This document shows positions 31,422-39,002 of a DNA stretch of 64,000 bases, piece by piece. A program made the position numbers and the translations under genes. This DNA comes from Nodularia sp. NIES-3585 (GTDB lineage Bacteria; Cyanobacteriota; Cyanobacteriia; Cyanobacteriales; Nostocaceae): the NCBI RefSeq assembly GCF_002218065.1, contig NZ_BDUB01000001.1:2823270-2887269 (forward strand). Direction: 5' to 3'. Below the pieces are notes generated by a model. The model was given only the letters and a program-made list of their open reading frames with translations, did no database searches and had not been told where the DNA came from. Every line of letters begins with the position of its first letter. Position 1 is the stretch's first letter.

Positions 31422-31745
31422 GTGAGAAAGGGGGAAAGAGTAGACCACTGGTTCGTAAGGCTACGTCCTACGGTAAAAGATCAGCCAAGCCTACTGTACG
31501 GCAAAGAAATCAAACCGCCTTGGGAAGCAGGGTGGCTGCGTGGGTTCTTCTTTGAGGAGATAAAGGTAGTAATACCAGAGACGCTGTGTAAGACCATCAT
31601 CGGGTTCAGTCCCGAATATCCTTGTGATATACCCAACGTGGCAACGGCGAACGAGACACGAACTGATGATGGTTGTTTCTTTGAAGCTCCTGCTTCAGCG
31701 AAGCGAGCCGGAGGACTTCACCGAATTCCTCCTGTAGTAAAACTT
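31422..31745 (+). other. Stop-free 108-codon extension in frame with mfd, of unknown nature
   Basis: The mfd frame stays open for 108 codons upstream of the expected Mfd start. The translation ([20 protein letters not shown]..., ending ...[14 protein letters not shown]) resembles no Mfd N-terminus I know. Its last part translates a hairpin-type repeat (CTGCTTCAGCGAAGCGAGCC). Stretches such as GGTTGCGACCCACCC and CGTAAGGCTACGTCCTACGG just before and within it suggest a structured or mobile-element-derived sequence. It may be an insertion whose coding potential is accidental. Confidence 0.35.
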
Positions 31746-35246
<3,501 letters not shown>

Positions 35247-35456
35247 ATAGTAGTTAAACAATAACTATTTTTGGGTGGAGATATGATTGAAGGGTTAATA
35301 TTAAGGCTTGATCACCCAAGTAGCTGTTATTTACTGAATATGCTGTAGTTGGAAAGGTGTTTTATGAGCATGACCGCCCACAATTCATGGTGAGTTTGAC
35401 TGCTAAGGTATGGTTAGAGAGTAAAGGTAAGGGATAATTCCTAAAGGAATACGGCA

Positions 35457-36851
35457 ATGAAAATTAAAGTCAAAAATCTTGGTGCTTTAAAGCAAGCCGA
35501 ATTCACACTGGGCGACATGACAATTATTTGTGGCTGCAATAATACAGGCAAGACCTATGCTACTTATGCGTTGTTTGGCTTTTTGGCTACTTGGCAAGAT
35601 AGGCTTTCCATCAAAATCAACGCCGATCACATCGACAGCCTTCTTGCTGATGGCGTAGTTCGTCTTGACATACAGGAATATGTCGAACAGACTGAGCAGA
35701 TTATTTATCAAGGTTGTCAGGCATATACCAAAGAATTACCGAAAATTTTTGCGGCACGGGCTGAACGATTTAAAGAAACAGAATTCCAGGTTATTCTAGA
35801 TACCCAAAATATTCGTTTATCAAGAAAATTTGATCTGAAAATTGGCTCCGGTGAGGTGTCGCTTTTCTCTATTACCAAAAGTGAAGAAAGCACAGAATTG
35901 GTTGTTACTCTGCTTGTTGAGAAAGAGAAGGTAAAAATCCCTACTGAAATCCTTGATCACATCATTGCTGATGCACTGAAAGACATCATTTTTGGTCATT
36001 TTTTCCCTCGCCCTTTCATAGCCAGTACCGAACGAACTGGTGCTGCCATTTTTCGTAAAGAGTTGAATTTTGACCGCAATCGCTTATTTGAAGAAATAGG
36101 TCAGGCTGGCCAAAATATTGATCGAGTAAAACTGCTACTGAAAGATTATGGAGATTACGCCCTGCCCATCAAGACTAATGTGGACTTTATCCGGCAGCTT
36201 GAAACAATTGTCAAAAAAAGTAGTTTCATGACTGAGAACCATCCTGATGTATTAGAAGATTTTGCTGACATCATCGGTGGTAAATACACCGTCACCCGTA
36301 ATGATGAACTTTATTATGAACCAAAGAAGGGTAAACGAGTTCAGCTTTCTATGAGTGAAAGTTCTAGCGCTGTGCGTTCTCTACTAGACATCGGCTTTTA
36401 TTTAAGACACGAAGCCCAACTTGGTGATTTACTGATGGTGGATGAACCCGAACTGAATCTACACCCGGAAAACCAGCGTCGCGTCGCACGACTATTTGCC
36501 CGACTGGTGAACCTCGGCATCAAGATTTTTATCACCACTCACAGCGATTACATTATCAAAGAACTGAATACGCTGATCATGCTCAACCACGATAAACCTT
36601 ATCTCAAGCGAATTGCAGAAGAAGAAAATTATCGGCAGGAGGAACTGATATCTTGTGAAAGAATCAAAGTCTATATGGCGGAAGAAGCAACCATAAAACT
36701 AGAGGGTAGTAAAAGAAAAACAAAAACTAAATGCCAAACCCTAACACCAGCCGACATCGACCCGGAACTAGGTATTGAAGCTCGCAGCTTTGATAGAACC
36801 ATCGAAACTATGAACCGGATTCAGGAAGCGATTGTCTGGGGTGAGGATTAA
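35457..36851 (+). CDS. AAA_15/OLD-like ATPase, first gene of a two-gene cassette
   Basis: A 464-residue ABC/SMC-type ATPase. Walker A is GCNNTGKT (residues 26-33) after the typical KVKNLGALKQAEFTLGDMTII start. An ABC-signature-like LSMSESSSAVRSLLDI (about 299-314) precedes Walker B LLMVDEPELNLHPENQ (Asp329, Glu330), and an H-loop FITTHSDY lies around 358-363. The middle (about 60-290) is unassigned. No TOPRIM motif is seen at the C-terminus, unlike true OLD nucleases. AAAGGAA precedes the ATG. Its stop overlaps the next start by one base. Likely a nucleotide-hydrolysing sensor that controls the partner; an anti-phage role is inference from the architecture. Confidence 0.85.
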   Translation: MKIKVKNLGALKQAEFTLGDMTIICGCNNTGKTYATYALFGFLATWQDRLSIKINADHIDSLLADGVVRLDIQEYVEQTEQIIYQGCQAYTKELPKIFAARAERFKETEFQVILDTQNIRLSRKFDLKIGSGEVSLFSITKSEESTELVVTLLVEKEKVKIPTEILDHIIADALKDIIFGHFFPRPFIASTERTGAAIFRKELNFDRNRLFEEIGQAGQNIDRVKLLLKDYGDYALPIKTNVDFIRQLETIVKKSSFMTENHPDVLEDFADIIGGKYTVTRNDELYYEPKKGKRVQLSMSESSSAVRSLLDIGFYLRHEAQLGDLLMVDEPELNLHPENQRRVARLFARLVNLGIKIFITTHSDYIIKELNTLIMLNHDKPYLKRIAEEENYRQEELISCERIKVYMAEEATIKLEGSKRKTKTKCQTLTPADIDPELGIEARSFDRTIETMNRIQEAIVWGED

Positions 36852-37411
36852 TGTCTGATATTGCTATCCTCAAAGAGATGATCAAGAAAACTGCTACAGT
36901 ATCACTAGAAAATGATCCTCACGGCAATAAAATAGTCAAACTCCAAGAACCTGATCTCCCCGATTGTTTTGTAATAATTCGTGGGATACCTGACGAGGAT
37001 CAAATTATTGTTATCAAAGCAGATCAATTTAAGTCACCGGATACAGTTTTTATTGGCTCAAAAGGTGAGTGCAAACGTGCGGATTTTGTCATTGTCGCCG
37101 ATACCCATACAAAAAAAGTTATTATCTGCATTGAGATGAAGGCAAAACCTACGACCAGCAAAGAGTGGGAAATCATTCAACAACTTCAGGGCGCACAGTG
37201 TTTTATTGCTTATTGCCAAAAAATTGGCAAAGAGTTTTGGGGACAACCTAAATTTCTTGACAGTTATGTTTATCGCTTCGTCACTATTAGAAATATCAAT
37301 ATTGATAAGAAACAAACACGGGAAAAAAAAACTGATTCTCATGACCGTCCAGAGCGGATGCTAAAAATTAGCTCTCCACATTATCTTCAATTCAATCATT
37401 TGATCGAATGA
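36851..37411 (+). CDS. Putative PD-(D/E)XK-type nuclease, partner of the ATPase
   Basis: A 186-residue soluble protein that I do not recognise as a named family. Residues 78-113 match the PD-(D/E)XK core: Asp78 in ADFVIVAD, then IICIEMKAK with Glu95 and Lys97, then a helix IIQQLQGAQCFIAYC with Gln113. Predicted strands and helix alternate as expected for that fold. The C-terminal 30 residues are basic. The start codon overlaps the ATPase stop (TAATG), so translation is coupled and the two products probably act together. Nuclease activity is inference from the motif only. Confidence 0.6.
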   Translation: MSDIAILKEMIKKTATVSLENDPHGNKIVKLQEPDLPDCFVIIRGIPDEDQIIVIKADQFKSPDTVFIGSKGECKRADFVIVADTHTKKVIICIEMKAKPTTSKEWEIIQQLQGAQCFIAYCQKIGKEFWGQPKFLDSYVYRFVTIRNINIDKKQTREKKTDSHDRPERMLKISSPHYLQFNHLIE

Positions 37412-37806
37412 AGATAGTTAATGGCTCTGGATAAAACTTTCTCAACTTGCCTTATACTATCTTATATCCAAAAATTTACTATTTTCTGGCAGTATGATCG
37501 CTGACGGTTTGTTTATAGAACATTTCCTATTGTGCCTTAGGAACAAGCGATCGCCTGGAAAATACACCCTCAGCTTTTATAATAATAAGTGTGCTATTAG
37601 TGCGATCGCCCCCTCATATCGGCAACAATAAAATTAGAGATGGCATTTCATGAGTTTCTCATTCCATCCTAGACGTGGATTAGTTGTTGTTCGTGCAGAA
37701 TTATTTAGGGCTTCTGGTCGTACTGATAATTGGTAGCCAATTTATAGAAACAGCTGTAGAGTAGTTGAGATCGTTTATCTCATCCTCACATTTAACGCAT
37801 CCATCT
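37412..37806. other. Spacer after the ATPase-nuclease pair
   Basis: About 395 bases without a convincing gene. It contains two HIP1 octamers (about 37549 and 37603) and no obvious repeat or terminator. A promoter for the small secreted protein that follows is expected here but was not recognised. Confidence 0.4.
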
Positions 37807-38046
37807 ATGGATAGAAAAACCAAACGCCTGTTAATCCTTGTTTTTTCCTGTAGTCTAACTGGTGTAATTCTAGGCGGTACATCCAGTTGGGCAGAAAGCA
37901 ATATTTGCTTGCAATCCGAGACGGTGACAAGCAATTGCCTAAAACAAGACCCCATGCAAAAAACCATACAAGGAATGAGTACCGGTTTGGTAGCAGGCGC
38001 AGGCGCAGCTGGCGGTGCAGCATGGAATATCCGTCATGAGGATTAA
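37807..38046 (+). CDS. Small secreted protein of unknown function
   Basis: A 79-residue protein. Residues 1-28 form a signal peptide (basic MDRKTKR, hydrophobic LLILVFSCSLTGVILGG, cleavage after SWA). The mature part has two Cys (NICLQSETVTSNCLKQD) and a Gly/Ala-rich segment (MSTGLVAGAGAAGGAAW). The start at 37807 was preferred over an upstream ATG because it opens the signal peptide. No family recognised. Confidence 0.55.
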   Translation: MDRKTKRLLILVFSCSLTGVILGGTSSWAESNICLQSETVTSNCLKQDPMQKTIQGMSTGLVAGAGAAGGAAWNIRHED

Positions 38047-38084
38047 TTTTTAACTCGTTTAACACATCAGACATTTCCAAAAAA

Positions 38085-38190
38085 GAATGTAGAGACGTTG
38101 TATACAACGTCTCCATAACGGTTCTACAAGAAGCATATTTAAATTCCGTCGATGTCTATAAAATTTGAGCAACGCCCAGGCGTTGCTCCG
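38085..38190. terminator. Two hairpins between convergent genes
   Basis: GAGACGTTGTATACAACGTCTC (about 38092-38113) is a member of a dispersed palindrome family also found at about 47078-47101. GAGCAACGCC/GGCGTTGCTC (38167-38188) is a second strong hairpin. They lie between the convergent small secreted protein and the GDYXXLXY-type gene and are plausible terminators. Confidence 0.5.
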
Positions 38191-38240
38191 TTCTTTGAGT
38201 CAGTGGCTTCTAACCTCTGGGAATTTTTGCCCAATCAGGG

Positions 38241-39002
38241 TTAAAAACTATAATTGCGATAGCTACCCTCGCCGGAGGCATCGCGCACCCATAAACTAAC
38301 GGGTACAGCATAACCTTGAGGATCTACTTTGACTCTGACTGTAATCGGTCGGATTTGTCTACCTCTATTTCCTCTAGTTTGCTGCACAGTTTGGAAGATA
38401 TCGTTACTAATTTGCTGCCTTTGTTGTTCTGGAAGGTAATATGTTTCCACTCCATAATTAATGACATTATCTTGATACACGCCTCTTAAGGCTACCTGAT
38501 TGCTGGGGAGAGATTCCGGCAGATTGCTGCTGACTCGTATCGGTCTCCAAGGGCTGGGAACACCACGACCAGAGGAAATTTGTTGCTCTTGCAAAATCAC
38601 GTACAAGTTGGTTCCTGATAGCAGTTGTCTATTTCTCCCTTGATTTCCCCTAAGTAAATCATCCCAACCGGAAAGTCTTCGCAAATTTTCCACACGAGAG
38701 ATATTGTACTCCAGTGCTAAGGAAGACTCCTGAACAACATTATTAGGATCTTGAGCCACTGTTTGCAGAATTACATCCCTACCCGTGAGATTCGTATACA
38801 TGGCTTGGGTGGGAACTGCTAAAATTATTCCGGTTTGAATTAAGAGGGGAACTAATAGCCGCCAAAAAGGTAGACGTTGGTTAGATTTTTGTTCAGTAGC
38901 AATTAGGTAATCTCGAAAAGTTAGCTTCTCCGAAAATTCGGCTTCTGGGGATAATGTTCTAAATGATTTATTTCCACTCGATTCAGAGGGATCACTTTTC
39001 AT
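38241..39002 (-). CDS. GDYXXLXY-type membrane-anchored protein
   Basis: A 253-residue protein with an N-terminal membrane segment (FWRLLVPLLIQTGIILAVPTQAMY, about residues 45-68) and a soluble outer domain. It resembles the partner protein that often follows DUF2157 genes in cyanobacteria (GDYXXLXY proteins), but the name-giving motif appears altered to ESSLALEY. The late repeat LRGVYQDNVINYGVETYYLPE matches that family in feel. It lies 165 bases downstream of the DUF2157 gene on the same strand. Function unknown. Confidence 0.65.
   Translation of the reverse strand: MKSDPSESSGNKSFRTLSPEAEFSEKLTFRDYLIATEQKSNQRLPFWRLLVPLLIQTGIILAVPTQAMYTNLTGRDVILQTVAQDPNNVVQESSLALEYNISRVENLRRLSGWDDLLRGNQGRNRQLLSGTNLYVILQEQQISSGRGVPSPWRPIRVSSNLPESLPSNQVALRGVYQDNVINYGVETYYLPEQQRQQISNDIFQTVQQTRGNRGRQIRPITVRVKVDPQGYAVPVSLWVRDASGEGSYRNYSF

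Follow-up and report, generated by a model that had tools for sequence, protein, structure and literature searches.

A conserved ATPase-nuclease gene pair

We describe a two-gene cassette from Nodularia sp. NIES-3585, located in a window of 64,000 nucleotides read on the forward strand (assembly GCF_002218065.1, contig NZ_BDUB01000001.1, positions 2,823,270 to 2,887,269); the window here means that whole stretch, and cassette coordinates are counted from its first letter. Gene A (35457..36851, plus strand, ATG start), recognized from its open reading frame (ORF) and from Pfam and PADLOC-DB matches, encodes an OLD-like ABC ATPase of 464 amino acids (PDC-M47A), and gene B (36851..37411, plus strand, ATG start), recognized from its ORF, PADLOC-DB, and a structure model, encodes a predicted PD-(D/E)XK nuclease of 186 amino acids (PDC-M47B). 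The two genes overlap by one base in the sequence TAATG (36849..36853, plus strand), the start codon of B using the last base of the TAA stop codon of A, and both ORFs and their overlap lie exactly where an earlier reading of the same DNA (hereafter, the initial annotation) had placed them. That annotation had proposed a possible undescribed defence system; however, the cassette, which is real and intact, is already catalogued as candidate system PDC-M47 of PADLOC-DB 2.0.0, with nearly full-length matches for both proteins, and is probably a defence system.

The ATPase carries a Walker A motif (GCNNTGKT, residues 26-33), a Walker B motif (residues 329-333, within DEPELNLHPEN from residue 329), an H-loop (H362), a conserved E192/R193, a signature-like serine-rich region at about residues 298-305, and a C-terminal extension of about 100 amino acids; K32, D329, E330, and H362 are identical in 58/58 aligned rows. 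AAA_15 (88.8 bits) and AAA_21 (58 bits) were the sole Pfam families above the cut-off, and these matches, together with the intact Walker A, Walker B, and H-loop motifs, identify A as an OLD-family ABC ATPase, as had been proposed from the sequence. The reported absence of a TOPRIM domain also stands, with no Pfam TOPRIM match at E up to 1 and about 100 residues C-terminal of the H-loop. When a structure model of A (predicted local distance difference test score, pLDDT, 84.2) was searched with Foldseek, the top PDB matches were chains from complexes of retron and Septu PtuAB (best E 3.3e-10), with low template modelling scores of about 0.3-0.4.

In gene B, the predicted catalytic set consists of D78, E95, K97, and Q111, accompanied by the invariant E33, R76, and Y121, and all seven residues are identical in 80/80 aligned rows. 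The initial annotation had read the core as Asp78...Glu95-x-Lys97...Gln113; the first three of these positions hold, whereas residue 113 is glutamine in 7 of the 80 rows and lysine in 51, and Q113 was therefore rejected as the catalytic glutamine in favour of Q111. The model of B (pLDDT 91.8) presents secondary-structure elements in the order E79-84, E89-97, H105-128, placing the D...ExK residues and the conserved helix glutamine on core elements in the canonical PD-(D/E)XK order, with weak match scores against solved PD-(D/E)XK structures. The originally suggested combination of an ATPase with a PD-(D/E)XK-like protein is thus supported, as is the lack of an HNH or DUF4435 effector, since B showed no HNH, PtuB, AriB, or DUF4435 match at E up to 1. 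No Pfam or NCBIfam family matched B at that same threshold, and searching PDB sequences with B itself and with two profiles of B yielded only chance-level rows, two of them Hjc entries covering the motif region (E 0.7).

Occurrence of the pair across genomes

Homologous loci were compared in a phylum sample of 386 Cyanobacteriota genomes, the window's genome among them, and in GTDB contigs, where a search with B found 122 relatives; the locus counts given below rest on 80 of the 122. Among these 80, A is incomplete in L033, L064, and L095 and lies in two frames in L065, and B is split in L110, which was left out of alignment A3. The 22-residue fragment L031 was left out throughout, L030 (truncated B, 97 amino acids) was excluded from an earlier count of B conservation, and alignment A4 comprises 56 of the 76 full-length As.

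Within the phylum sample, B is present in 27 genomes, with A directly upstream in 27/27 (one A being shortened and one B truncated), and in the GTDB contig loci A immediately precedes B, in the same orientation, in 80/80. Because of these two counts, the adjacency of A and B is not due to chance, and the linkage of B homologues to the ATPase, which the description of the pair as a cassette had implied, is borne out. The same -1 spacing was seen in 64 of the 79 homologous loci measured. Hosts belong to the phyla Cyanobacteriota, Pseudomonadota, Thermodesulfobacteriota, Chloroflexota, and Lentisphaerota, and further to Riflebacteria, Aminicenantes, and Latescibacterota, with one archaeal metagenome-assembled genome; a search of viral contigs gave one relative only.

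A profile of A had matches in 33 of the 386 genomes. Each of nine divergent As (eight from the profile search, one on viral contig L112) precedes a gene of roughly 200 amino acids with the pattern D-x(n)-[E/D]-x-K, and with seven plasmid and phage loci added, such a partner is present in 16/16 divergent pairs examined. For L175, at the end of a contig, and L176, both short fragments of A, no partner was found, and they stand outside this tally. As a separate observation, several copies look damaged or incomplete, namely the truncated B of L030, the two-frame A of L065, the split B of L110, and the shortened A of L095, and L029 was also listed with them.

Identity as PDC-M47 and kinship with PD-T4-4

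Gene A matches PDC-M47A at 818.7 bits (residues 1-463 on model 1-460/461) and gene B matches PDC-M47B at 277.9 bits (residues 1-185 on model 1-183/186); with the two genes adjacent on the same strand and overlapping by one base, no difference from PDC-M47 was found. The pair thus matches an already named system, its family membership is well supported, and it is a good study example rather than a new kind of system. A full-text literature search for the name PDC-M47 returned no paper, and the candidate gains here an intact cyanobacterial representative in which the key residues are named.

Nor was the suggestion supported that the pair is not one of the named types, as A also matches PD-T4-4_A at 531.7 bits (residues 1-462) and 254.7 bits, both below its PDC-M47A score, and profile comparison connects the families of the nucleases. 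An E. coli functional selection for phage defence had yielded PD-T4-4 among 21 candidates, in a part of an integrative element rich in defence genes (PMC9519451), and a table in a review puts it under AAA ATPase domain and PD-(D/E)XK domain (PMC10952713). PD-T4-4 shares with the cassette its gene order, similar gene sizes, and a D...[E/D]xK partner. The differences lie in the nuclease, where B matches PD-T4-4_B weakly (best 15.5 bits, E 0.0026, residues 71-168) and the PD-T4-4_B of an E. coli plasmid has DQK in place of the EMK of the window's B, and in the ATPase phylogeny. In a tree of 49 As, with group labels assigned by hand and several long branches flagged, 36 M47 rows are parted from 5 plasmid or phage rows of PD-T4-4 type with support 100/99, and an M47-only branch, with the ungrouped row L112 outside it, has support 97/97.

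Some divergent partners bridge the two nuclease families: the B of L170 scores 66.9 against PD-T4-4_B and 33.6 against PDC-M47B, and that of L178 scores 46.0 and 36.8, respectively. In profile comparisons, the M47 B family aligned at its catalytic columns both with the divergent Bs (alignment A9, probability 97.3) and with the PD-T4-4-type Bs (alignment A8, probability 94.0); A8 and A9 matched one another at probability 99.1, and a control against an unrelated ATPase alignment gave 0.5. Given a weak PD-T4-4_B match and yet a profile probability of 94.0, the PDC-M47 nuclease is, as judged from sequence, kin of PD-T4-4_B rather than a member of PD-T4-4, and the bridging partners, profile comparisons, and A tree together indicate that PDC-M47 and PD-T4-4 represent distinct branches within a single family. 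In addition, E33 of B has an invariant glutamate as its counterpart in the alignments of PD-T4-4-type and divergent Bs, and D58, conserved in 76/80 rows, corresponds to an invariant aspartate in the same two groups (columns paired by eye in both cases), which suggests a putative superfamily signature extending beyond D...ExK.

Comparison with characterized systems

Several named defence systems combine an ATPase with an effector of another kind: PtuB of Septu is an HNH nuclease, Gabija joins a TOPRIM-bearing ATPase to a UvrD-like helicase partner, and PARIS has an AriB partner with TOPRIM/DUF4435. The Septu and retron PtuAB chains are the best solved-structure matches of A, whereas B is PD-(D/E)XK-like and, as noted above, matches neither HNH nor PtuB. 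Gabija differs in that A has no TOPRIM match and B no helicase match, and PARIS in that B matches neither AriB nor DUF4435, its PADLOC matches being only PDC-M47B and PD-T4-4_B.

WonAB, from the WASA-1 prophage of Vibrio cholerae, is an OLD-ABC ATPase with a PD-(D/E)XK variant (PMC12137116). Both of its genes are required, and protection is lost when either activity is mutated; WonB toxicity depends on active WonA, and upon WonB overproduction genomic DNA stays intact and translation stops, an arrest by which WonAB aborts infection (PMC12137116). The authors of that study place WonAB in a larger uncharacterised family of ABC-ATPase sensors with nuclease effectors and remark on its similarity to PD-T4-4 (PMC12137116). 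Set side by side with the cassette from this published description, WonAB shows the same succession of an OLD-type ABC ATPase and a PD-(D/E)XK variant (with weak scores for the fold of B), and the WonA residues examined by mutation there, K34, R182, E300, and H333, likely correspond to K32, R193, E330, and H362 of A, as matched by reading rather than by alignment. At 16.1 kDa, WonB (catalytic K71) is the smaller nuclease, B having 186 amino acids and K97, and the spacing of the ATPase motifs differs. PDC-M47, PD-T4-4 (by test), and WonAB (by published description) are here connected as one family that can be tested jointly.

Proposed mechanism

A role in defence, as initially suggested, is supported by homology and genomic context. 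On balance, we favour the fairly probable reading that the cassette is a PDC-M47 type anti-phage system of an OLD-ABC ATPase and a PD-(D/E)XK nuclease, in which a licensed, RNA-cutting B stops the infected cell. Trigger, target, and activity are modelled mainly on WonAB: A would dimerise through its ATP-binding sites and carry B on its C-terminal extension, and upon sensing a product or event of phage infection, ATP turnover by A would stabilise and license B. The nucleic acid that licensed B would then cleave is most likely an RNA on which translation depends, and the infected cell would stop before progeny were made. RNA as the target of B, transferred by analogy from WonAB, is the least certain step of this proposal.

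A rather unlikely variant within the same family would make B a DNase, with A recognising phage DNA or its ends and B degrading that DNA, such that the infected cell survives. The structural neighbours of B, judged by name, are in the majority DNA-cutting PD-(D/E)XK enzymes, and the position of the pair between brxC and pglX in 4 of the 80 loci (see below) would suit a DNA-acting auxiliary. PD-(D/E)XK folds include RNA-cutting enzymes too, however, and the fold therefore does not decide the substrate. WonB overproduction spared genomic DNA and stopped translation (PMC12137116), which argues against this variant.

It is quite unlikely that PDC-M47 is mechanistically separate, its ExK nuclease with R76 and Y121 having a target and trigger unlike those of WonB and PD-T4-4_B and acting as the guard of other machinery. 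If this were true, placement beside mfd or inside bacteriophage exclusion (BREX) operons could reflect the sensing of stalled transcription or of inhibited BREX, a guard role resembling that of PARIS, which answers inhibitors of restriction systems.

BREX operons, plasmids, and a phage

In the four loci mentioned above (L099, L104, L106, and L100), the brxC-pglX position of the pair falls inside type 1 BREX operons. BrxA, BrxB, BrxC, PglX, PglZ, and BrxL were all matched by PADLOC in L099 (1814-16534), and BrxA, BrxC, and PglX in L104; the remainder of L104, L106, and L100 was assigned by identity to L099. The pglX gene adjoining the pair in L106 is broken into two pieces, and the contig of L100 is short. 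A 2026 BREX survey of 594 taxa describes partnerships of OLD-ABC ATPases with nucleases, PD-(D/E)XK enzymes among them, in BREX or BREX-related loci (PMC12839542); the four embedded pairs resemble these modules, whereas the window copy adjoins mfd and lies outside BREX.

Defence families were scanned in 128 of the 152 nearest neighbour genes (the 24 dropped being 9 mfd segments and 15 presumed near-copies), in 72 control genes, and in 67 genes downstream of mfd in other genomes of the same taxonomic family, the matches listed being those of the best 25 of 120, 25 of 51, and 25 of 68 families. Among the matches listed, four neighbour genes match BrxC and four PglX, and no BREX family appears for the control genes. 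PDC-S03, which among the same matches reaches up to 9 of the 128 neighbours, 2 of the 72 controls, and up to 3 of the 67 mfd-downstream genes, carries no weight because it is present in neighbours and controls alike.

An M47-type pair occurs on an Annamia plasmid, and further pairs occur on plasmids of Bernardetia, E. coli, E. albertii, Serratia (A shortened), and Klebsiella; Vibrio phage 1.202.O (Peduoviridae) has a divergent pair, which sits between repressor and integrase genes (L184:4001-6032). Two of the plasmid loci, L180 and L183, are whole Col-type plasmids of 4-5 kb from E. coli and Klebsiella that carry a PD-T4-4-type pair and, besides it, few annotated genes other than those for plasmid maintenance.

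The site downstream of mfd

The left flank of the window cassette is an ORF at 31422..35246 (plus strand) that we take, from its sequence, to be mfd, encoding the transcription-repair coupling factor, and its right flank is a gene of 93 amino acids at 37765 that is conserved in the genus. Genus comparison delimits a variable, unstranded segment between the mfd 3' end and this gene (35251..37720). A was found in the window's own genome alone among five genus genomes, the other four being without an A match. In three of these, both flanks are retained around different cargo: G199 has a Fic gene pair together with a 390-amino-acid protein, G386 a Fic gene pair together with a PDC-S32-like protein, and G387 NsnA, NsnB, and NsnC; in the fourth (G282), where the mfd flank only was found, mfd is followed by a ribbon-helix-helix (RHH)-like gene and then by a gene pair ending in a PIN domain. 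For Fic, the match comes from a test of the G386 copy, the G199 copy being near-identical by eye, and the RHH-like small genes fell below the Pfam cut-off; the 390-amino-acid protein of G199 (L162:4945-6117, minus strand) matched nothing in PADLOC or Pfam at E up to 0.01. Within the window's genus, the cargo just downstream of mfd is variable. An empty version of the site was not found, and the window segment 35251-37720 showed no integrase-sized ORF besides A and B.

Outside the genus, A and B were present in 2 of the mfd-downstream stretches of 18 of 19 same-family genomes (G391 was omitted at a contig end, and L220 comprises 2595 bases only); judged by length, the two contigs concerned are those of L041 and L068, already among the loci above. 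Among the matches listed for the 67 genes in such stretches, single genes match Csm4 and Csx1/Csm6 (CRISPR type III) and a phospholipase effector. Together with the BREX-embedded copies, this variable site hints at where more members of the family and other systems may be found. Ten of the 80 loci carry, shortly before the pair, an mfd gene 82-89% identical to that of the window; in the other 70 it was not found, with upstream sequence of at least 1 kb available in 72/80 and at least 4 kb in 59/80.

The Fic- and PIN-domain genes of toxin-antitoxin type at the same genus site, and the overlap of two genes of which the second encodes a small predicted nuclease, could point to a toxin-antitoxin pair in which B is a free nuclease toxin and A its antitoxin, which we consider very unlikely. 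Typical toxin-antitoxin pairs have a gene order unlike one with a large ATPase first. The need of WonB toxicity for active WonA rules out simple sequestration for WonAB (PMC12137116). A housekeeping DNA-repair pair acting with Mfd, suggested by mfd upstream in the window and in 10 of the 80 loci, is largely refuted and scarcely credible in view of the 70 loci where mfd was not found, the four of five genus genomes without A and with other cargo at the site (once NsnA, NsnB, and NsnC), and the relatives on plasmids, in a phage, and inside BREX operons.

As for the DNA itself, the guanine-plus-cytosine fraction of the cassette (0.399) lies inside the span seen for window stretches of the same size (0.306-0.509, mean 0.426), and composition is thus uninformative on recent transfer. 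Repeats of at least 14 nt in 35150-37850 form weak two-copy families only, with no direct repeat flanking the cassette; Rfam gave no match on 35000-38300, and a viral structure library search gave none at E 0.001 or better. Elsewhere, seven loci from Microcoleaceae-type and other filamentous cyanobacteria (L033, L036, L049, L053, L067, L071, and L111) have common neighbours beside the pair, presumably phycobilisome lyase and phycobiliprotein-related genes, and this shared setting suggests long residence at one site.
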